Shown in pieces: positions 1 through 14,990 of a stretch of DNA of 64,000 nucleotides (positions are counted from its first letter, which is position 1; the number at the start of each line of letters is the position of its first letter). A program made the translations under genes and the position numbers. Under the pieces are notes generated by a model, which was not told the origin of the DNA, made no database searches, and saw only the letters and a program-made list of their open reading frames with translations. Source of the stretch: Thermoplasmata archaeon (lineage in GTDB: Archaea > Thermoplasmatota > DTKX01 > VGTL01); assembly GCA_038851035.1 (NCBI GenBank), contig JAWCLH010000011.1, positions 433 through 64,432 on the forward strand, given 5' to 3'.

Positions 1-2868
1 GCGATCTCTGGCAACGGCGGAGACGCTGGGGACGGAGGCCATGGGGTGTACTACTGTGGCGGTGGTGGGGGCGGTTACGGGGGTGGGGGTGGGTGCGGCC
101 CCGGGAGCGCGGTGAAGGGCGGAAGTGCTGAGGTCTCAGGCTCGGTCGGCGCAGGGGGCGAAATAAACGCCACTTTCATAGGCGAGAGCTTCCTGAATGT
201 CACCAATATCACGGTTTACGCCATCGGAGGAAATGGCGGCCGGGGCGGCAACGGGGGTAATGGCGGCTACTACTACGGCGGCGGTGGGGGCGCGGGGTAC
301 GCCGGCGGGGGCGGTGGCGGCTATGGCGGCAACTACGGGGGTGGGGGTGACGGGAAAGTCAGCGGCCGCGTGGGTCAGGGCGGCAACGTGGCGGTGTGCT
401 TCATGGGCGGGCCGATGTATGTCTCCCAGTCAACCCTGGTCCTGTTTGGCGGCTCTGGAGGCAACGGAGGCAACGGCGGCGCGGGTGGTTATTACTACGG
501 CGGCGGCGGCGGAGGTGGCTACGGAGGGGGCGGCGGGTGCTACTACACCTACTCCTCCTACCCGCAGGCTGGCTCCGGCACCGTCGAGGACAGGGTCGGC
601 AAAGGCGGCGACTGCAGCGTGATATTCCAGTCGGACAGCGAGCCTGGAACGATGCGCGCCGCCGGAAACAAATTCTACATCGTCGGCGGAAATGGGGGCA
701 ATGGAGGCGCTGGCGGTGCTGGGGGCACCTACTACTGCTGCGGCGGCGGAGGCGGCTACGGCGGCGGCGGAGGGGCCTACTACTACTACAACGGCGGAAC
801 CGCAACTGTCGGTCCCCTTGTCGGGAACGGCGGAGACGCTAACTTCCTAGTCTACCATGTGGCACCTTCGATATCCAAACTGAACACTATCAGCCAGCTC
901 GCCGGCAAGAACGGGAACGGAAAGACCCAGCCCGGAAAGGCCTCGGCCTCCTACTCCGGCTCCGGCTACGGTGCCGGGACGGGGAATCAGAAGAGCGCCC
1001 CCGGAAACGTGACACAGGTGATTCCAATGGGCGTTCCCCTCCTGGTTGAACCGGAGGACAAAGCAGTCGTCAATGCCATTCCCCCGACCTTTGAGTGGGA
1101 GCACATACTCTTCAGCAGCGAGGATGGCGAGGTAATCAGCTACAGCATACAAGTGGATAACAACCCAGACTTTTCATCCCCCGAAATCGAGACGGGATTA
1201 GAGCTCGAGACCAGCTTCACGCCAACGATGGAGCTCAACCAGGGCGGGACCTATTACTGGCGCATGATGGCAACCTACATGTCTGGCAACTCCTACGGCT
1301 GGGGCCCAACGCGAACATTCCAGTTCAACACAGGACCAGTGCTGAAGAAGAACATCGGCCTCCAGACTTTCAAGGAGGACACTACTGCCTACAGGCTTCT
1401 CAACCTGAGCATGTACTTCACAGACGACCTATATCCAGACCAGCTGACCTACTCGATCATAATGGAGACCAATCCGAGCCACATCCTAGGCATCGTGGAG
1501 GACAACTTCATCACGTTCACGACCCCCACCCCCGATTGGACAGGCCAGGAGAGGTTTGCGGTCAGGGCCTATGACCCGCTAGGCCTATCCGCAACCTCCA
1601 ACGCCTTCACAGTCCGCGTCACTCCCGTCAACGACCCGCCGAGAATTCAGGAAATTCCTGACATTAGGGTGACTGAGGGAATGGAGCACTTCCTAGACCT
1701 CTCGCCATACATCACGGACGTGGACTCAAAGCTCGAGAGCCTCACCCTCACCACCAACTCATCCTATGCTCGGGTGGAGGGCCTAGGGCTCTACTTGAGC
1801 TACCCGGCCGGCGTGGAGGGGGAAGTGGTGGAAATCAATGTGAGTGACGAGCTCGACTATGCCACCGCCTCCTTCCGAGTCTTTGTCGAGGAGTACAACA
1901 AGCCGCCTGAGATAACTGTACCCTCCCAACCACCCTGGAATATAATAATGGTCGAAGATTCAGAATACGTAATGTACCTCATCGACAAGGCTGTAGATGA
2001 GGAGACCCCCTCGGATAAGATTGTTTGGAACGTAATCGCCGTAAACGCCGGAAACCCACCCATCTTCCGGGCAGAAATTTATGAGCAGAATGTGCTGAAA
2101 ATCGTCCCAGCCCCCAACGCCTACGGCACAGGGAGCATAGTCCTTGTCGCTGTGGACGAGCAGGGCAAGGAGGACTCGAGGACCGTAGGCGTCCAGATAA
2201 CCCCCATAAACGACGCCCCAATGATATCTCGAATCCCGGACGTCAAGATGATGGCCGGCACAACGAAGGACATAGACCTCTCCATGTACATCATGGACGT
2301 GGACACACCGCTCGAGGAGCTGAGGCTCGCCTCCTCATCCCCACTCGTCTCGGTGGACGGCCTCAGGGTGAGGCTATTCGTCAAAGCTGACACGGTGGAA
2401 AGGGAGGACGTGATACCCCTGACAGTATCAGACGGAACAGACACAAGCATGGGGGAGTTCCTGCTGAGAATTCTCTTCCCACCCATGATTCCGCAGGACC
2501 TCCCTGACATAAAGGTGATGGAGGACAAAACCTTCGAGCTGGATCTCAAGGAGTACTCGCTTGACAAGGACACGCCCGAAGCGGCGCTCAGGTGGGAGGT
2601 CGGCGACGTGAACGACAGATACTTCAGTGCCACAATCGACCCGAACACCCACATACTGAAGATAACTCCAAAAAGGCCTGGCCGCGACGAGATCACCCTG
2701 ACAGTCTACGACCCGGACGGCGGCTCCCAGACCCAAACAATACTTGTGATAGTCAAGGCGGTCGAGAAGAAGACGGAGTTCTCAACGGGCTTCTATGTCT
2801 TCGTGGGCTTTGTGGTCATAGCGTCCGTCATAGGAGTGGTTTTGTTCGCCATGAGGAAGCGGGCATAG
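1..2868 (+). CDS. Glycine-rich repeat cell-surface protein, 5' truncated
   Basis: The reading frame is open through base 1, so the N-terminus lies upstream; a GTG at 46 is only an internal codon. About 285 visible residues are Gly-rich units of 74-79 residues. Each has GGN-GGx triplets, then YYY or YYC, then poly-Gly broken by GYGG, then a short beta-like VGxGG segment. A fibronectin-III-like domain follows, then five cadherin-like domains with recurring ITDVDS or IMDVDT motifs, and a C-terminal membrane helix ending MRKRA. This predicts an exported, membrane-anchored extracellular protein. Glycine triplets suggest a polyglycine-II or PPII-type bundle (inference). Adhesion or structural role is plausible but unproven. 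A hairpin follows the stop. Confidence 0.85.
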   Translation, partial: AISGNGGDAGDGGHGVYYCGGGGGGYGGGGGCGPGSAVKGGSAEVSGSVGAGGEINATFIGESFLNVTNITVYAIGGNGGRGGNGGNGGYYYGGGGGAGYAGGGGGGYGGNYGGGGDGKVSGRVGQGGNVAVCFMGGPMYVSQSTLVLFGGSGGNGGNGGAGGYYYGGGGGGGYGGGGGCYYTYSSYPQAGSGTVEDRVGKGGDCSVIFQSDSEPGTMRAAGNKFYIVGGNGGNGGAGGAGGTYYCCGGGGGYGGGGGAYYYYNGGTATVGPLVGNGGDANFLVYHVAPSISKLNTISQLAGKNGNGKTQPGKASASYSGSGYGAGTGNQKSAPGNVTQVIPMGVPLLVEPEDKAVVNAIPPTFEWEHILFSSEDGEVISYSIQVDNNPDFSSPEIETGLELETSFTPTMELNQGGTYYWRMMATYMSGNSYGWGPTRTFQFNTGPVLKKNIGLQTFKEDTTAYRLLNLSMYFTDDLYPDQLTYSIIMETNPSHILGIVEDNFITFTTPTPDWTGQERFAVRAYDPLGLSATSNAFTVRVTPVNDPPRIQEIPDIRVTEGMEHFLDLSPYITDVDSKLESLTLTTNSSYARVEGLGLYLSYPAGVEGEVVEINVSDELDYATASFRVFVEEYNKPPEITVPSQPPWNIIMVEDSEYVMYLIDKAVDEETPSDKIVWNVIAVNAGNPPIFRAEIYEQNVLKIVPAPNAYGTGSIVLVAVDEQGKEDSRTVGVQITPINDAPMISRIPDVKMMAGTTKDIDLSMYIMDVDTPLEELRLASSSPLVSVDGLRVRLFVKADTVEREDVIPLTVSDGTDTSMGEFLLRILFPPMIPQDLPDIKVMEDKTFELDLKEYSLDKDTPEAALRWEVGDVNDRYFSATIDPNTHILKITPKRPGRDEITLTVYDPDGGSQTQTILVIVKAVEKKTEFSTGFYVFVGFVVIASVIGVVLFAMRKRA
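226..850 (+). repeat. Tandem Gly/Tyr-rich coding repeats
   Basis: Three further repeat units begin near 226, 448 and 685, after a partial first unit at the window edge. Each unit encodes GGN-GGx triplets, a YYY or YYC block, poly-Gly with GYGG, and a VGxGG spacer. The DNA is dominated by ggc/ggt/ggg codons, which also generates long spurious Arg-rich frames on both strands. Some units carry Cys next to the Tyr block (YYC, YYCC), others Cys after poly-Gly. Confidence 0.85.
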
Positions 2869-4597: not shown

Positions 4598-6043
4598 CTA
4601 CTTCCAGCCCGCTCTCACAAGTAGGTTCGGGTCGGGAATGACGCAGTAGGTGGGCTTACCCTGGTGCTCCATCTGCTCTATCCAGCGCCTGAGTCTATCT
4701 TCTACAGGCTCGGCTTTATTACCTACCTGCACGAGCGGCACAAGCCTTTCCTCATCCGGCTTTAGGCCATCCTGAATAATCCATAGATGCCCGTAGCCAG
4801 TGTGCTTAAGGATGTCAAGAAGGTCCACGGGCTTCTGCTTCCCTATTTTGAAGTCCGACATTACCACCCTCTGAGTCTCGCGCATCGCCCTGTCTATGTA
4901 CTCATTCTTCAGCCTTTCGGCCTCTTCCTCTCCGGTGCTCCCAAGCCGGGCCTCTAGTTCATGGAAAATGGGCGCGGAGACAGCCATCAGCCCCTTGAAC
5001 TCCTCATTACCGAAACCGTCCCGGCACTCCGAGAGAAGAAGGATGTGGCCGCCCTTCTTGACCGCTTTCTTGGCTGCGTTATACGCCTTTCCCGATTGGT
5101 AGAGGTTGATTCCAGTCTGGCGGGCGCTTATGATGACGACGTCTGCCGGCTCCCTGACTCTTGCGATGTACACTTTTCCAAGCGCATCGAAGGCTCTCCT
5201 GTGGGTTTCTATCAGGTCACCGCCCTCGAGCCAGACGAGGCGCGCCTCGGGATCCATCACCGCAGTCAGTGCGTATACCCATCTCCCCTTCTTTCTCATC
5301 TCGTCGAGGAACATGCCCACGACCTTTTTCTTGTACTCGAACACCGGGTTCCCGTCCGCCGAGCCGCTCTCGACCCCGGGCGCGAAGCCGAGTTCGCCGA
5401 ACATTTTGAGGTGTTCTATTCGTATTATCTCGGCCCCGCAGACGCCGGGGCATATCTGCTTTGGCCCGCCGGCGATGCCTGCGAAGTAGTGGTACTCGAG
5501 GTCATTGAGGGGGATGCAGACCTCCGAGCTGAAAACGGTATTGTTCACCTCGACCACGGACCCGTCGTCGAGGGTACCAACCCTCGCCAGCCCCTTTTTG
5601 TCGTTGTGGATTACGACATTGTCCCTGTACTCCGGCCAGGCGGAGCCCAGAATTCCGGGCATTTCTTTTTCCAGGGGGGCCCTGTGAGTTCCAGTGGCTA
5701 CTACCAGCCTGATGCTCTCCCTCCCCACTCCGTATGAAAGGAGGAAGTTGAGGAGATGGGGCAGGAGGAGACGTGTGTGGTGGTTGGTTCTCGTGTGGTC
5801 GTCAACGATGATCGCCACAGCCCCTCCCTTGTAGAACTTTTCCAGAATCTCCTTCAGAGAGGGACATCTGTCCGGCGTAGAGGAGCTCGTTGCCGCCTTT
5901 AAAAAGGCTCCAGCCACGTCCTTTATCTCGGGCAAACCGGGGGGAGGTATGAGGGGGATGAGCCTCTCCTCTCTCAGGATGGATTCCGGGAGGTAATCTC
6001 TCAGCTCTCTTCCTGCGTACTCAAGCGGAGGAGCTCCATACAA
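4598..6043 (-). CDS. LarA-type (nickel pincer) racemase/epimerase family protein
   Basis: 481 residues matching the LarA/DUF2088 family, which uses a nickel-pincer nucleotide for hydride-transfer racemization of 2-hydroxyacids. Visible motifs are DDHTR (81-85), GTHR (118-121), and HYFAGIAGGPKQICPG with His185 and Lys195, then His211. The His-to-Lys spacing of 10 and Lys-to-His spacing of 16 equal those of lactate racemase H174, K184 and H200. The start is TTG, preceded by GAAGGTG at good spacing. No larB, larC or larE accessory genes are in the window. The substrate could be lactate, malate or a sugar acid. Transcribed divergently from the P-loop kinase gene. Confidence 0.85.
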   Translation of the reverse strand: MYGAPPLEYAGRELRDYLPESILREERLIPLIPPPGLPEIKDVAGAFLKAATSSSTPDRCPSLKEILEKFYKGGAVAIIVDDHTRTNHHTRLLLPHLLNFLLSYGVGRESIRLVVATGTHRAPLEKEMPGILGSAWPEYRDNVVIHNDKKGLARVGTLDDGSVVEVNNTVFSSEVCIPLNDLEYHYFAGIAGGPKQICPGVCGAEIIRIEHLKMFGELGFAPGVESGSADGNPVFEYKKKVVGMFLDEMRKKGRWVYALTAVMDPEARLVWLEGGDLIETHRRAFDALGKVYIARVREPADVVIISARQTGINLYQSGKAYNAAKKAVKKGGHILLLSECRDGFGNEEFKGLMAVSAPIFHELEARLGSTGEEEAERLKNEYIDRAMRETQRVVMSDFKIGKQKPVDLLDILKHTGYGHLWIIQDGLKPDEERLVPLVQVGNKAEPVEDRLRRWIEQMEHQGKPTYCVIPDPNLLVRAGWK

Positions 6044-6771: not shown

Positions 6772-9700
6772 TCAGCGCCTAAGATTGGCGCCACAGGAGG
6801 GGCACTTTCTGTCCGTGGGCTTGACCTCGGCAAAGCATTTCGGGCACTCCGCCTCTTCTTTCTCATCTTCCTCTAACTCTTCCTCCTCTTCCTCCTCCTC
6901 TTCTTCCTCGCGATACTTCGCCTCTTCTCTACGCCGCATATAGAAGTAGCCGCCGACGATTACGACCACAAGGACCACAGCACCCGCCAGCAGATACCAG
7001 TTGATCAGGCTCTCCCTGACACTGATTTTTACCCAAGCGGTGTTGTTAGTCTCGTTGAGTTCCGGGATGGCGGAGCCTACGTCGATGAAAACGGTGACGT
7101 TGTGGGTGCCCTTCCTAGGCTTCCACTCGACCTCCACCGTCTTCGTCTCACCCACCGATAGAAGTCTCACCTTTTTATCCCCGATTTTCTTTGTTCCAGC
7201 CTGGAATCGGACGGTGAAGTTCTCAGCGGCCCTCTCGCCTGTGTTGGTTACCTTCACACTGATTCTGACGGTATCTCCCTCGGCGGGGTTGCTGTTTGAG
7301 AACTCTGGCTTCGCCACGGGATGGAGCTCGGCAAAAATGAGGGGCGGGGTAATGGTGATGGTCTGGGTCGTCTCATTCCAGAACTTTCCGTCAGACACGT
7401 TCAAGGTCACCGTATATATTCCCTCTTTTTCATAGGTGTGGTTCACCACCATCGCAACGCTCTCGTTTCCCTCGACTTTGGAGCTATTGTCGCCGAAGTC
7501 CCATACGTACCAAATAATCGCCACATTGTCGTCTGCCGTCGAGGCGTTGAACTCCACGGGGAGCCTCGCGGGAGAAGTGGTCACATTCATTATGAACCGG
7601 GCGGTTGGGGTTGTGTTGTCCAGTACTGTTACCCGCAGAATGGTGACATTGAAGTTGCCCGCCTTGTCGGTAACATTCAGCGTGATATTGTAGGTACCAG
7701 GCTGGGTGTAGGTGTGGTTTATGAGCACGCCCTCGCCGCTCCGGTAGTCGCCAAAGTCCCAGTGGTATCTTACGATCTCTACGTTGTCTATGGACGCGGA
7801 GGCGTTGAGCTCCAGCGGCTCAGAGTCTTCAACAACAGTGGCGTTCTCAGGGAGGCATTGAATTCTGGCTGTGGGGGCTTCACCGTCTATCGTGACGGTC
7901 AGATACGTGGTGTTGGTCAAACCACCTGTGTCGGTTACCGTTAGCGTTACATTATAGATCACGAGCTTTGTGTCGTTTGTTGTGTTATAGGTGTGGTTGA
8001 CCGAGGCCCCGTAACCCTTCTCCCCATCCCCGAACTCCCACGTGAAGTTCTCGATGCCAAAGTCGTCCGAAGAGGTCGAGGCATCGAAGTAGACGACCGC
8101 GCCCGGTCTTACCGTCTTGTTGCCGTCCGTGTCGGCGACCGGGGGTTCGTTCTTGCTTATGTTAAGGGCCACCCATTCATAAGGCAGCGCGGCTCCCGGG
8201 AGCTGGGCCATCGGGTCAACGACTACTTCGTAAGTCCCCCTGACTTCCACTGCCGGTCCCGCCTCAATAATTCTTCTCATTTCATACCCTACCGGTAGTT
8301 TAATAATGGTTCTGCTGCTCATCGTATCGCTGTCATATGTGGCGTTGATTTTGAGAATACGATGGACCGCCTCGGGAACGGTGGCGTTGGCTGTGAGGTT
8401 GTACCTGTGTACTACGGTTATGCGGCTGGTGTTTGTGGCGTTACCGGCAGCGTCGGGCGAGCTGACGGTCAGCGAGCCCTCGACGTAGGTGTACCTCACA
8501 CCGTCAACGGTCAGATACTCCCTCGTGTCGCGATGGGGCGGACCGCGGGCTCTGAGGGTCTCGAGATAGGCTCCCGCCTCCTCATCGCTGACAGTTCCAT
8601 CGCCGTCGCCGAAGTTGCGGTCTATGTCCCACCGGGTGGTGCCCTCAGAGGCCGTCATGAGGAGGGAAGCGGTTATGGTCAGATTGCTCCAGTCCCTGAA
8701 TTCCAGCTCCTCGGTCAGGTCAGGCGGGGAGAGGGCGCTGAGGGTGATGTCGACCCTCTTAGAGCCCGTGACTCTGAGTTCCGAGACGCTCGAGCAGTAC
8801 CCCGCGGCCTGCCCGATTAGCAGGAAGCTTCCGGGATAGACAGGAATTCTATAGTATCCGCCCACCGGGGTGGTGTCCTCCATGAGGTATCCCGTGTGCT
8901 CTGGATCTAGGTCGAAGAGAATCACCCTTGCCGACTGCACCGGAAGGCCCGCTGCGTCCAACACATAGCCCCAAACGGAATATACCCTCTCCGGAATTGG
9001 AGAAAGCTCGATTCCCACCGTTACATCAGACTGCCCCACCTCCAGCTTCTGGCGGTATAGGAAATAGTTCAGAGCAGATGCCTCAAGGGTAAAGTTGCCC
9101 GGGTAAGTCAGAATGGAGTAGCTCCCGGACGCGTCCGTGGTGACGGAATTGCGCGTACCATCCGCGTCTATAAGTGTGACCTCTGCACCCGCCACAGGAG
9201 CGGAGGTCTTTTTGTCCTTTACTGTGCCTCCGACCCTTGTCCCGGCCGCGGGGGCGGCACTGATGGTTACATCCTTTCTCTCCCGCTTGGCCTCAACCAC
9301 ATCCATTGCTCCGGAGAAGCTCAGGAAGCCCACGGCCTCGACCTTTATATCGTAGAATCCGGCGGAGAGCGTAAGTGTGTAGTAGCCCCCCTTTCCTGAT
9401 ACGGTTCCAATCCATTTCCCGGTGCTCCTTTCTGTGAAGGTGACCCTAGCGCCCTCTACCGGCTCCCCCTCCCTGTTTAGTACGTATCCCCACACTACGC
9501 TCGTCGCCCCGGGGACTGGGGCCAGCTCCAAATCCATAAGCTTCTCCTCACCCAGTGCAAGTCTGAAGCTCTCCTTGTAGCCGTACATACCGTCGGCCGT
9601 CACCCGCAGCGTGAAGGTCCGCCCATAACCTAGCAGGGCGAACTGGAAGTGGCCCGTGGCATTCGTTCTGGTGGAGAGCTGCTCCTCGCTAATAAGCAGA

Positions 9701-10125
9701 ACATCCGCACCTGGAACGGCATCTCCATGCGAGCGGACAACCCCTTTTACATGGGATGTCTCGGGCGTGAGATTGACATCGAGCTGGAATTCCCTTTCAG
9801 GTATCAGTGTCACGGTCTCGTCACGGGCCGTGTAGCCCTTTAAAGAGAAGTGGACCGTATATGTGCCATCAGGGTCGGGCACTGTCAACTCGTAGCTTCC
9901 GTCAGCGGCCGTGAAGACCGGAGCGGGGCTGTACGAGGCATTGGAAAGAGCAACCTTGACATCCTCTAGGGGAAGGTGGGTGTGCCCATCGCGAACGATT
10001 CCATACAGTCTCGCCTCGCCAGTTTGTCTCCCGCCGCGGTGCATCGGTGCCGCCGCAACCGCTGTCAGCACCAGCGCCCCTGCCAGCAGAAGAGTGACCA
10101 GTTTGCCGCTGTATTGACTCATCAT
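6772..10125 (-). CDS. Exported CarboxypepD_reg/PKD/CARDB protein with cytoplasmic zinc ribbon
   Basis: 1117 residues. After a signal peptide (ATG at 10125 or 10122, preceded by GGTGAGAG) come five CarboxypepD_reg-like beta-sandwich repeats (patterns GxVxD...PVxGAxV...GSY), then an unassigned middle domain, three PKD domains with WEFGDG, WDFGDY and WDFGDN cores, and a CARDB-like domain. A membrane helix near 1025-1045 and an RRRE stop-transfer are followed by a Glu-rich stretch and a C-terminal CPKC-x(11)-CPSC zinc ribbon. The ribbon is predicted to be cytoplasmic, linking surface and cytosol. It is the last gene of the minus-strand surface block. Probable role: adhesion, substrate binding or signalling (inference). 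Confidence 0.8.
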   Translation of the reverse strand: MMSQYSGKLVTLLLAGALVLTAVAAAPMHRGGRQTGEARLYGIVRDGHTHLPLEDVKVALSNASYSPAPVFTAADGSYELTVPDPDGTYTVHFSLKGYTARDETVTLIPEREFQLDVNLTPETSHVKGVVRSHGDAVPGADVLLISEEQLSTRTNATGHFQFALLGYGRTFTLRVTADGMYGYKESFRLALGEEKLMDLELAPVPGATSVVWGYVLNREGEPVEGARVTFTERSTGKWIGTVSGKGGYYTLTLSAGFYDIKVEAVGFLSFSGAMDVVEAKRERKDVTISAAPAAGTRVGGTVKDKKTSAPVAGAEVTLIDADGTRNSVTTDASGSYSILTYPGNFTLEASALNYFLYRQKLEVGQSDVTVGIELSPIPERVYSVWGYVLDAAGLPVQSARVILFDLDPEHTGYLMEDTTPVGGYYRIPVYPGSFLLIGQAAGYCSSVSELRVTGSKRVDITLSALSPPDLTEELEFRDWSNLTITASLLMTASEGTTRWDIDRNFGDGDGTVSDEEAGAYLETLRARGPPHRDTREYLTVDGVRYTYVEGSLTVSSPDAAGNATNTSRITVVHRYNLTANATVPEAVHRILKINATYDSDTMSSRTIIKLPVGYEMRRIIEAGPAVEVRGTYEVVVDPMAQLPGAALPYEWVALNISKNEPPVADTDGNKTVRPGAVVYFDASTSSDDFGIENFTWEFGDGEKGYGASVNHTYNTTNDTKLVIYNVTLTVTDTGGLTNTTYLTVTIDGEAPTARIQCLPENATVVEDSEPLELNASASIDNVEIVRYHWDFGDYRSGEGVLINHTYTQPGTYNITLNVTDKAGNFNVTILRVTVLDNTTPTARFIMNVTTSPARLPVEFNASTADDNVAIIWYVWDFGDNSSKVEGNESVAMVVNHTYEKEGIYTVTLNVSDGKFWNETTQTITITPPLIFAELHPVAKPEFSNSNPAEGDTVRISVKVTNTGERAAENFTVRFQAGTKKIGDKKVRLLSVGETKTVEVEWKPRKGTHNVTVFIDVGSAIPELNETNNTAWVKISVRESLINWYLLAGAVVLVVVIVGGYFYMRRREEAKYREEEEEEEEEEELEEDEKEEAECPKCFAEVKPTDRKCPSCGANLRR

Positions 10126-10265
10126 CTCTCTCACCGTTTGGCGTCGTTCTCCTTCTCGCCTTGACCTGCCCTGAGGCGGGTCAGGGCAAGAATACATTTA
10201 CCCTTTAAAAAGGTAACTACATAGTATAACTCCCGCTCTTAAATTTGTGTCAGAGGGAATTTATA

Positions 10266-13200
10266 TCAAACTCCTCGGCCCCGTTCAGATGAGGTCGAGC
10301 GCTCCTCCTCCCACTCCACAGGCTGAGCTTCGGGCGGAGCCTCTTCCTGATAGTCGACCGGCCCTTTCCACGGCATCGCTTCCGCTGGCTCGCCCCCTCC
10401 CATGCGTGTTGTGGCGAGCGGTGGGCTCTCAACGCGCCGCCGTCCGCGACCCCTCCGCCGGAGCACGTAAATTAAGGCGTTCTCGAGCGCGAGGACGAGG
10501 GCCACCGTAGCGATGGTCTCGACCCATGGTGACGGGGTTCTTGCCTCTCGCTTAGTCCTCACAATAAACCAGACCAATGTGTTCTCGTTCCCGGCCCTAT
10601 CCGCCGCCCTCAGGATAATCGTGTTGTTACCGGGTAGTAAGTCTATATTCAGTGCAAATGCGCCGTCCGGGCCCGCAACGGTCATGGCCTCCCCTGTCGA
10701 GATCAGGGCGAAGGGCTCAGTTGTGCCGTTGATAGTCACATTTCGCTTCGCCGTCCTGAAACCACAGATGGGCGAGCCGATTAATATATCGGGGGTTTCG
10801 GTATCCACATGGAGCTCGAGCACCGTCGAGTTGGTGTTGCCAGCGGAGTCGATTACAGTTATATTTATAAAGTTATCCGGGGCAGGAAGGGGGAGAATCT
10901 CTGAAAACACACCGTTGATGCAGAGTACCTCCCTCCCTTCCACGAGCACCCTCGCACCCGGCTCCGTCCTCCCGTAAAGCCGTGCTTCGGAGATGGGGGT
11001 GTAACTCCCGTTCAGCGGACTGGCGATGTCGATGAAGGGAGGCACGGTATCGAGAAACACCGTTCGGGTGATGGTGGCCGAGTTGCCCGCCGCGTCCAGA
11101 GCGGAGACCAGTATAGTGTTCGCGCCCTCCGAGAGCTCCACCGTGACACAGAATGCGCCATTGTATAGGAGTGCGCGCCTTCCATTGACCAGAATTTTTG
11201 CGTCCACCTCCGTGAGCCCCCTGACGGATACTGCCCTCTCACGCGTGACCTCACCCTCTTGGGGTTCGGTGATTTCGAGGAGTGTGATCTGCGTGTCCAC
11301 GGTCACATTTAAGAGACAAATAGCGCGATTTCCAGCAGCGTCGGTTGCCCTTATATACAGTGTATAGTGGCCGTCCGAAAGCGCAAAGGAAAAGCTCCAC
11401 TGCTCCAGACCCCTCACCTCAGCCCAGACGCGTCCGTCCTCGCTGGCCTCGACGAGGGCGAGACCCGTCTCGTAGTCCGCCGCGAGCCCCGTTACAAGAA
11501 CAGGGGTGTAGTTCAGGAGGGCGCCATCCGGGGGGTTCATGAGCTCTATCTGGGGGGGCTGCAAGTCGTTTAGGATGACGTAAATGGTCTCGCTGGCTTC
11601 GAAAGTTCTTTCAACCGAAGTAGAGACGTCTGCGAAGCGGACACTCAGTTTATAGGGGTTCTTCTCCCTTCTGTCCTGCGCTGTCTGGACGTACTCGATG
11701 ACCTGAATTCCGAGCAGCCAGCCCCGCTCGTCGGTGAGGCCGGCGAAGAGCGAACGCCCCTCCGCGTCGATGAGTAGAATCTGGCCCCTCTCAACGGGAA
11801 CCCTGGTCTGCCAAGCAGCATTCACATTCAGGAGCCAGATAACCTCGAGGTAGGTGCCGGGGCCGGCTAGCCTGACCTTGCTTCTGGTGAATGTCGTGTT
11901 GAGCGTCACCAGTCTCGAGCCCTGTTGGAGGTCCAGATCAAGATATCCGGAGAGGTATATCGAGCTGTTCTCGACCCTGAGCGAGGAGGCCACGGCCACA
12001 AGAGCAACGCGGCAGTGGGAGAAGCTAAGGCCAGAGAAGCTCGCCCTGATTCCGTTGGCTATCAGGCCGTGGGTGCAGTTTATGAAGGCCACATTACACA
12101 GAGTGACGTTGTCGCTCAGGAGGTTCAGGCCTCCGGACTCTCCAGCCGCCCCCCAGTCCTCTCCGCAGTCTTGGAGGACTCCATCCGTGAAGGTCAGGGC
12201 CCCTCCACGGAGGATCCTGAAGTGGTACTTGCTTGATGGAGGAATGGCTGCGACCGTGCAGCCGTCGATGAACTCCAAACGGCCTTCGTCCTCGACAAGA
12301 ATAGCGTACTGTCCGGAATATCGAAGCGCCATAAAGAGCGTCACGTTCGTCAGCCGTAGGAACGCCCCGCTCGAGACCGTCAGGTTTCCTGCAAGCTTCA
12401 CTCTCTCGGCGGTCAAGGAGGAGCTTGATACGATTCTCCAGTCGCCGACCGTGCCCTCGCCGCAGTGAATAGCGTATCCGAGGTTATCCCTGTACTGTCC
12501 GTCGATTACTTGGAGGGTCGAGCCACCAACATCGAGCACGCCGTCCCCATTCCGCTCAAAAAGGCACCTCTCGACCCATGCTCTGGCATTCTCGAGCTGA
12601 AGTGCCGAGCCGTTGTTGTCAACGAACTCGCACTCGACCGCTCTCACACTCCCGCCGTCGCCGCAGGCGCCGCCGGCATTATGCTCGAACCTGCATTGTG
12701 ATAGAACGGCGTCGGAGCTGTAAAGGTAGACCCCGAAGTGGGAGTTACCGCTGAATGTGCAGCCCCTGAGCTCCAGGCTGCTGTTCTCTGCCCTGAGGCC
12801 GTCGGTGGCGTTCCTAAGACTGCATAGCGAAATCATGACCCCCCCACCCGAGCAGTCGTCCACCGCTATTCCGTCAAGGCCACCCTCGATGAAGTTCTCG
12901 ACGAGCACGGGAGAGGAGCCGATGACCGATACCCCGAACCTCGTATTGTTCCACAGCCTATTTTTCCAGACCACGGCGTCGGAGGAGACATGGCACGAGA
13001 TTCCGCCCTCACACCCGTGGATTTCGTTCTCGTAGACGGAGGGTGCGGAACCGTATAGGCAGGAGATTCCACGCTCGCTGCCAGAGATGTTGTTGTTGTG
13101 AATAATTCCCACTGAGGCGCTTATCGAGAACCCCATAACCCTGTTCCCCACAAGAGTGTTGCACCAGTACTCTCCACCTGCACCACCCGAGAGTGCAATC

Positions 13201-14990
13201 CCGAGCTCGTTGCCGGCGAGCAGGTTGTGGTGGACGCGGGGGCTGCAACGCTTTCCGTAGCAATAGATTGCGCTACCGGAGTTCCCGGTGAAGGTGTTGT
13301 TCTCGACTTCGGTTGTGGAATCGACGCAATACAGGCCCGCGCCTCCATTCCCTTTGAAGGTGTTATTTGCAAGCCTGCCTCCGGAGTCCGTAAGGGTCAC
13401 GCTATCGAATGTGGATGAGGAGAATATGTTGTTCCTTATTTCGGGCGAGGAGCCCATGCCGAGCAGCGAGTGGTTGCTGCAGGAGATAAAGGTGTTAGAA
13501 AGAATCTGGGGGCCGCCTCCGTCCAGGACGATACCCGTGGAATCGTTGTCGAAGGTGCACTCCCTCACCACCATTCCCCGGTCGCAGCCGCTCGCGCGCA
13601 GGCCCTCCCGGCACCCTGAGAATGTGCAGTTCGAGACCTCCGGGGTCGAGAAGTATTCGGCATAGAGGCCGATTTTCCCCCCGATGAAGCCGCACCTTCT
13701 CACGCTCCCGCCGGAGAAATAGTTGATGAAGACCCCCGCCTGCGTGTTGTCCGAGAACACGCACGCGGTCATGTTCACTGTGCTGGTCAAGGAGTTGACG
13801 CCGATGGCGTTCTCCCGGGCGGTAACGTTGACAAAGCCCGGCCTCGAGTTGCGGCACTCGACGCCCTGATAGTTCTGCTGGAATATGCAGTCACTGAACT
13901 TCATATCCGAGAAGACTGCCAGAGCGCCTGTTCCATAGCACTGTCCATCGACGGAGGAGTAGCCTGTGCGCGTGACTTTGCAGCGGGATATCTCCGGCGC
14001 GCCGTAGTAGCCCGCCACACCATACCAGGTACAGCTGTCCATGACGCAGTCCCTTACGGAGGCGCCGCTCTTATAGAGATATATGCCGTAGCGGTCGGCT
14101 GTGAAGGTGCAGTTGGATATTGCGGGGCTCCCCTGAGCTACATATACCCCGTACGCCCCCTCTCTCATCGTGCACCCCGAGACGCTGGCTTCGCTCTGCA
14201 TCAGCACGATGTGGCCCGCGGTGCTGTATGCGAGGTCGCATCCGCTGACCTGGATTGGTGATGCATAGGCCAGGATGCCGAATGCAGATTGGTAGTAGAA
14301 TGTGCAATTTCTGAAGGCGGCAGGACTGCCTTCTAGATTGGCGCCGTGGGCGTTGGACCTGAATGTGCAATTCTCGAAGGCCGCAGATGAGTTAATGAGA
14401 CCCGCGCCGTATGTGTTGGACACGAAGCCGCACTCTTTGAACAAAGGCGACGCCCCCCGGACCAAGACCCCGTAGTAGGAGTTTGTAAAGGTGGTCCGAG
14501 CGAAGCCGCAGAGCTCGGAGAGCACGTAGAGGCCCGCTTTCTCGCCGCTCTCCCCCCACGTCCAGCCGCAGCCCTTGATGGTGGCGTCGGTGGCGTTCAT
14601 CGCCCCGCCCTCGCGTACGATGAATCGGTAGCGCTGTTCGCCAACGGGCTCGATGACCGCACCGGCGCGAAGCTTCAGCTCGCCCCCGCTTTTCACTTCT
14701 ATTCCGAAATCACCATGTGAGGCGCAATCGAGTCTAATCTTGGCCCCATTCAGCTCTAGCTTTCCAGTTGACAAGACCGTCAGATTGCCTCGGAGGGTGA
14801 TTGTGCACCCGTCGTAGGCCCTCGCGTCCTCGACCGTCCAGTCGCCGCTGACGGTGCCGCCGCCTGGAGGGGGGTCGTTGGACGCGCTGGCAGGGAGGGA
14901 CAGGACAATGAGAGCGGCCACAATGGGGACGAAAAGTAAAGCCCAAAGCACGCCTCTCGGGAGCCTATCCACCCCTCCCACCCCCTTCAT
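10266..14990 (-). CDS. Giant right-handed beta-helix surface protein A
   Basis: 1574 residues with a signal peptide, then a GDWTV cap and a very long run of PbH1-like coils (recurring NCTF, GCTF, NTFxGN every 21-25 residues). A second cap-like segment near residue 850 (GDWRIV) starts another helix module. Four Ig-like domains follow from about 1145 (motifs PPFIDIASPLNG and similar). A membrane helix near 1495-1515, an Arg-rich stop-transfer and a charged cytoplasmic tail finish the protein. NosD/PbH1 beta-helices usually bind or cleave polysaccharide, but no catalytic residues can be assigned. The start has AGGAGG seven bases upstream and overlaps the preceding gene by 26 bases, so translation is probably coupled. 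Confidence 0.85.
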   Translation of the reverse strand: MKGVGGVDRLPRGVLWALLFVPIVAALIVLSLPASASNDPPPGGGTVSGDWTVEDARAYDGCTITLRGNLTVLSTGKLELNGAKIRLDCASHGDFGIEVKSGGELKLRAGAVIEPVGEQRYRFIVREGGAMNATDATIKGCGWTWGESGEKAGLYVLSELCGFARTTFTNSYYGVLVRGASPLFKECGFVSNTYGAGLINSSAAFENCTFRSNAHGANLEGSPAAFRNCTFYYQSAFGILAYASPIQVSGCDLAYSTAGHIVLMQSEASVSGCTMREGAYGVYVAQGSPAISNCTFTADRYGIYLYKSGASVRDCVMDSCTWYGVAGYYGAPEISRCKVTRTGYSSVDGQCYGTGALAVFSDMKFSDCIFQQNYQGVECRNSRPGFVNVTARENAIGVNSLTSTVNMTACVFSDNTQAGVFINYFSGGSVRRCGFIGGKIGLYAEYFSTPEVSNCTFSGCREGLRASGCDRGMVVRECTFDNDSTGIVLDGGGPQILSNTFISCSNHSLLGMGSSPEIRNNIFSSSTFDSVTLTDSGGRLANNTFKGNGGAGLYCVDSTTEVENNTFTGNSGSAIYCYGKRCSPRVHHNLLAGNELGIALSGGAGGEYWCNTLVGNRVMGFSISASVGIIHNNNISGSERGISCLYGSAPSVYENEIHGCEGGISCHVSSDAVVWKNRLWNNTRFGVSVIGSSPVLVENFIEGGLDGIAVDDCSGGGVMISLCSLRNATDGLRAENSSLELRGCTFSGNSHFGVYLYSSDAVLSQCRFEHNAGGACGDGGSVRAVECEFVDNNGSALQLENARAWVERCLFERNGDGVLDVGGSTLQVIDGQYRDNLGYAIHCGEGTVGDWRIVSSSSLTAERVKLAGNLTVSSGAFLRLTNVTLFMALRYSGQYAILVEDEGRLEFIDGCTVAAIPPSSKYHFRILRGGALTFTDGVLQDCGEDWGAAGESGGLNLLSDNVTLCNVAFINCTHGLIANGIRASFSGLSFSHCRVALVAVASSLRVENSSIYLSGYLDLDLQQGSRLVTLNTTFTRSKVRLAGPGTYLEVIWLLNVNAAWQTRVPVERGQILLIDAEGRSLFAGLTDERGWLLGIQVIEYVQTAQDRREKNPYKLSVRFADVSTSVERTFEASETIYVILNDLQPPQIELMNPPDGALLNYTPVLVTGLAADYETGLALVEASEDGRVWAEVRGLEQWSFSFALSDGHYTLYIRATDAAGNRAICLLNVTVDTQITLLEITEPQEGEVTRERAVSVRGLTEVDAKILVNGRRALLYNGAFCVTVELSEGANTILVSALDAAGNSATITRTVFLDTVPPFIDIASPLNGSYTPISEARLYGRTEPGARVLVEGREVLCINGVFSEILPLPAPDNFINITVIDSAGNTNSTVLELHVDTETPDILIGSPICGFRTAKRNVTINGTTEPFALISTGEAMTVAGPDGAFALNIDLLPGNNTIILRAADRAGNENTLVWFIVRTKREARTPSPWVETIATVALVLALENALIYVLRRRGRGRRRVESPPLATTRMGGGEPAEAMPWKGPVDYQEEAPPEAQPVEWEEERSTSSERGRGV

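Follow-up and report, generated by a model that had tools for sequence, protein, structure and literature searches.

What might a long glycine- and tyrosine-rich stretch be doing in a surface protein of an archaeon from an uncultured lineage? The question arises at the very edge of the window, as the whole 64,000-nucleotide stretch of Thermoplasmata DNA analysed here is termed, where an open reading frame at 1-2868 encodes 955 residues, the C-terminal part of a surface protein with a membrane anchor. The glycine- and tyrosine-rich stretch (window 1-870) is the N-terminal part of this reading frame and comprises one partial and three complete units. The features, with the evidence for each, are as follows:

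1-2868, + strand: whole open reading frame (955 aa), 5' end cut at the window edge; Gly-hairpin beta array, Fn3-like domain, cadherin-like/Big_9 repeats, transmembrane anchor
1-159, + strand: partial unit; Gly triplets, YYC turn, GGGGGGYGGGGG and closing motif VSGSVGAGG, with the beta rung upstream across an N gap
160-384, + strand: complete 75-aa unit, EINATF... to RVGQGG (repeat period, alignment, AlphaFold2)
385-609, + strand: complete 75-aa unit, NVAVCF... to RVGKGG (repeat period, alignment, AlphaFold2)
610-834, + strand: complete 75-aa unit, DCSVIF... to LVGNGG (repeat period)
835-1020, + strand: final rung, then a Gly/Ser-rich linker leading to the stalk, DANFLVYH... QVIPMG (alignment with full-length relatives)
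1021-1344, + strand: Fn3-like domain (Foldseek matches of the orthologue model to Fn3/Ig-like domains; Pfam Ig_Rha78A_N in the orthologue at E 0.0012, below cutoff)
1345-2760, + strand: stalk of cadherin-like repeats (Pfam Big_9 and Cadherin_4/5; NCBIfam tandem-95)
2797-2853, + strand: transmembrane segment at the C-terminus, with RKRA after it (19 residues, hydropathy 2.87)

On contig C11 the first base of the window is number 433. Directly 5' of the window lies a short run of Ns, preceded by some 420 bases that code for two further Gly units, one complete and the other with a rung ending at the N gap, its Gly part opening the window. Following the contig upstream, as the preliminary description had proposed, thus added two units to the array; the true N-terminus of the protein is lost at the contig end. 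It is present in the orthologue from the sister genome G001 (Euryarchaeota MAG M_DeepCast_200m_m1_298), which is complete at 1306 aa and is 61% identical over the Gly region.

In full-length relatives the order of modules is a signal peptide, a beta-rich region with short loops, the Gly-hairpin rungs, the Fn3-like domain, the cadherin-like/Big_9 repeats and a transmembrane segment. Both the signal peptide and the transmembrane segment are detected in these proteins, the former also in the 1306-aa orthologue. The cadherin-like domains and membrane anchor noted earlier are borne out by three Big_9 stretches (E 6e-16, 59.5 bits with a cutoff of 23.6, concerning the stalk only) and by one C-terminal transmembrane segment; the tandem-95 model NF012211 matches the stalk at E 2e-16, below its whole-protein cutoff. 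One group of relatives, f11 (L036, L037 and L038), has Big_13 in the stalk instead. In several family members the transmembrane segment leads into a zinc-binding tail in the cytoplasm. The tail is zinc-ribbon-like in the paralogues L028:3739-7980 (-) and L031:4452-7688 (-), and RING-like in the f11 group (CxxC...CRCG.FH..C...CPDCG; zf-RING_2 at E 0.003-0.007, below cutoff).

The unit itself is laid out as a beta rung, a GGxGGx(G/A)GxGG segment, a first turn, a Gly block of 13 residues with Tyr, or Phe/Ile, near its middle, a second turn and the closing motif VxGxVGxGG. In the window protein VGxGG recurs at residues 47, 122, 197 and 272, a spacing of exactly 75 aa, and self-similarity peaks at this same offset (z = 6.7; all offsets were tested, and the value exceeds the highest that any offset gave in 500 shuffles). 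The repeated Gly/Tyr units seen earlier are therefore real and strictly periodic. Block lengths were read off aligned two-unit segments (nine, from five proteins), in which the Gly block measures exactly 13 residues and the closing motif exactly nine, both without gaps, while the second turn ranges from 10 to 21 aa. The beta rung spans 21-22 residues (25 in the window's last complete unit). Length variation is located around the first turn and in the second, the rung, Gly block and closing motif being free or nearly free of gaps; pair identity in the same segments is 0.80-0.88 for the Gly block, 0.43-0.52 for the closing motif and 0.14-0.33 for the turns. The term 'silk-like' finds no support, because beta rungs of fixed length come between the Gly segments.

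The units are also conserved in register. Each of the four complete units on the window side (three in the window and one upstream) finds its best match in the unit at the same position of the orthologue, which implies that the array already existed before the two lineages split and is not being homogenised. Tyrosines behave differently: a YY pair occurs in the first turn in all seven units of the window protein and orthologue, but in just 3 of 21 other units, and cysteines are sporadic across units. Cross-linking through Tyr and Cys, suggested earlier, finds no support and is rejected as a conserved trait on these counts. In the N-terminal halves of L029, L028 and L030, the rung loops lengthen stepwise along the chain before full Gly hairpins appear, and from this sequence pattern it looks as if the hairpins had arisen through lengthening of rung loops.

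How widespread is the unit? The family is present in 11 of the 390 sampled genomes of the phylum, and separate profiles for the N-terminal beta region and for the Gly unit match the same 11. All five sampled genomes of the class are positive, which qualifies the earlier view of the arrangement as unusual in an archaeon. Two copies were counted in the window genome and at least five loci in G001. A narrower profile, A2, found four loci in two genomes, a count that understates the family because its pattern is strict; a profile built from nine sequences proved too heterogeneous for searching the contigs. Pfam gave no match, even at E values up to 1, for the Gly regions of the window protein, orthologue and paralogue. 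NCBIfam and PHROG gave none either, and PDB sequence searches with the unit returned nothing, or only Gly-linker and other chance matches; membership of a known family was rejected on these searches. A phage or viral origin was likewise rejected, as tblastn against 50,697 phage records gave no relative and none of 600 pattern matches in viral contigs proved to be one. In the open-access literature no description of an archaeal polyglycine-II case was found.

The predicted structure is all beta. For the head and Fn3-like domain of the orthologue (752 aa, five-sequence alignment), AlphaFold2 gave a pLDDT of 80.9 and a pTM of 0.80, with short, closely spaced strands first, followed by blocks of strands, each about 20 residues long and recurring every 73 residues or so, with Gly excursions between them. 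Two window units modelled from a nine-sequence alignment (pLDDT 85.8, pTM 0.75) likewise formed an all-beta array with glycine excursions. Rungs and closing strands of this model are mostly above 90 in pLDDT, in keeping with the beta-like spacers described earlier between the Gly segments, and the Gly parts lie at 60-90; across the two models some Gly parts fall to 55-70. Foldseek matched the orthologue model mainly to Fn3/Ig-like domains among the matches listed. For the two-unit model it returned no significant match, the nominal top hit being the snow-flea antifreeze protein 3bog (E 1.9, probability 0.01, TM 0.11-0.18, rmsd 17 Å). Sequence pattern and segment lengths fit polyglycine-II, in which left-handed threefold Gly helices lie side by side; we infer this geometry, and that of a solenoid, from the repeat period, the positions of the strands and the pattern of the sequence.

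The unit anatomy, its conservation and the module order are demonstrated, as is the prediction of an all-beta array with confident rungs, and on this ground a model of the protein can be drawn. The reading we favour, with somewhat better than even confidence, is that of an adhesin: a beta-solenoid whose rungs bear polyglycine-II-like hairpins with variable tips, raised on a stalk of Fn3-like and cadherin-like domains. Since a signal peptide is seen in the orthologue and a transmembrane helix lies at the C-terminus, the protein would stand outside the cell with its N-terminus outermost. Early rungs of the solenoid head would have short loops, and six or so later rungs would each bear a glycine-rich excursion of about 45 residues, running out along GGxGGxGGxGG, turning, returning through the 13-residue block with its central Tyr, turning again and re-entering by VxGxVGxGG. 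For the glycine legs the most probable packing is as polyglycine-II helices in a rigid slab. An exposed edge for binding to a surface or partner may be formed by the two turns, which vary in both length and sequence, and the Fn3-like and cadherin-like domains would keep the head away from the membrane. Adhesion, with binding at the turns, is suggested by likeness to gp38 and PE_PGRS proteins together with the module order; turn variability alone is no proof of binding, because neutral drift is easiest in turns. Any ligand of the head is putative.

A rival view denies the Gly segments a defined fold and takes them for flexible spacers of low complexity that arose by slippage in GC-rich DNA. Their composition invites it: glycine accounts for 117 of the first 300 residues of the window protein, GC content is 0.67 in window 1-900 as against 0.56 in the rest of the gene, and BLAST-type searches handle such sequence as low complexity. 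We nevertheless consider it improbable. Block lengths are constant across paralogues and species, the units are conserved position by position in the orthologue, and pLDDT in the Gly parts is 55-90, seldom below 50. The preliminary description had itself allowed that the repeats might lack conserved periodicity in relatives; unit lengths and positions are kept in them. The G079 relative, encoded in DNA of 38% GC, keeps the unit using other codons (GGT/GGA for 184 of 210 glycines, where the window uses mostly GGC). The unit is thus neither a product of slippage nor an artefact of GC content, and that origin is rejected on the fixed block lengths and this relative.

The main rival to adhesion accepts the fold and questions its use. 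The heads might associate laterally through their glycine slabs, tyrosines perhaps stacking, to form a surface layer as a structural coat or matrix protein without ligand binding. The several paralogues per genome, the long stalk with its membrane anchor, the Tyr-rich turns in the window's orthologue group and the stabilisation of bundles through dimerisation in snow-flea antifreeze protein (PMC13243192) would all suit such a role. The turns, on the other hand, are among the least conserved parts of the protein and the sole parts of variable length, which is easier to reconcile with recognition than with a repeating lattice, and Tyr enrichment is restricted to one orthologue group; a coat role therefore seems unlikely to us, if worth keeping in view. 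An ice-binding or stress protein like that of the snow flea, for which GGx triplets and the nominal rank of 3bog in Foldseek might speak, is very hard to credit: the 3bog match is not significant, and neither of the source records that carry a name, one a deep-water-cast MAG and the other the isolate nzgw66, gives a link to freezing.

The region around the gene looks rich in surface proteins. A giant PKD/CARDB surface protein with a zinc ribbon at its end (window 6775-10197, -) adjoins a 1574-aa protein (window 10269-14990, -) with a right-handed beta-helix (Beta_helix/NosD), Glucodextran_B and Big domains. Close downstream of the glycine-rich gene lies a homologue of LarA-type lactate racemase (window 4601-6043, -). 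Elsewhere in the same genome, L004:3-2117 (-) on contig C4 and L005:523-3036 (+) on C1 encode a second kind of Gly-rich surface protein, with a common ADGRGYGGGGGGQ start and Fn3-like domains and without the 75-aa unit.

Polyglycine-II slabs are known from just a few unrelated places, and a conserved, repeat-built archaeal family without a Pfam model would show the same solution arising again on a cell surface. It would provide a modular scaffold of constant legs and variable tips, allowing paralogues to be compared in their tips and number of units, and a way of asking how poorly known lineages related to the Thermoplasmata make contact with their environment. We put forward only tentatively the wider proposal of a lineage-wide archaeal adhesin family with a previously unseen arrangement, in which each rung of a long beta-solenoid bears one polyglycine-II hairpin, the legs form an extended slab and many variable turns line one edge, independent of phage gp38, PE_PGRS and ALK.

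Among known systems the closest in design is gp38 of Salmonella phage S16 and E. coli phage PP01 (PDB 6F45), whose tips combine a beta-helix, a polyglycine-II sandwich and receptor-recognition loops (PMC12892980). A beta-helix part, GGx/poly-G legs and variable loops at the leg ends would be common to both: for the archaeal protein an all-beta array with Gly excursions and variable turns is predicted, in which a polyglycine-II sandwich is a candidate. Of the likeness to phage tips drawn earlier, the design is supported and the polyglycine-II resemblance is plausible and better grounded than before, the geometry itself staying inferred. Whereas gp38 carries just one small sandwich, on a phage fibre, the archaeal protein would hold one hairpin per rung, six or so in all, on a cell-anchored stalk; S16 gp38 and window:136-864 have no detectable sequence similarity (blastp E 0.36 in this single comparison) and there is no PHROG match. 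It is probably an adhesin built independently of the phage adhesins, which hold receptor-binding loops in a similar way.

The mycobacterial PE_PGRS proteins, which also lie at the surface, have long GGx-rich regions for which the models show polyglycine-II sandwiches, one edge being made of variable loops (PMC9436101). In contrast to them, the archaeal protein alternates its legs with beta rungs, has a signal peptide, stalk and transmembrane anchor, and lacks a PE domain, no Pfam match to which was found in the full-length orthologue, whose N-terminus is the signal peptide and beta-rich region. In the glycine-rich domains of ALK and Pam3 gp24, glycine-rich legs pack beside a beta scaffold (PMC9608196), as is proposed here, but their scaffold is TNF-like and that of the archaeal protein an array of rungs; the Gly region matches neither an ALK-type nor any other Pfam glycine-rich family. 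Of the likeness to snow-flea antifreeze protein (3bog) proposed earlier, the GGx triplet pattern stands; that protein is small, soluble and without beta rungs, and its fold is not that of the two-unit model, as the Foldseek values above indicate. The stalk alone places the protein among tandem Big_9/cadherin-like (tandem-95) surface proteins. By the tests run, then, the family is none of the gp38, PE_PGRS, ALK-type or antifreeze proteins; by analogy it would work like the polyglycine-II group, of which it is a candidate member.
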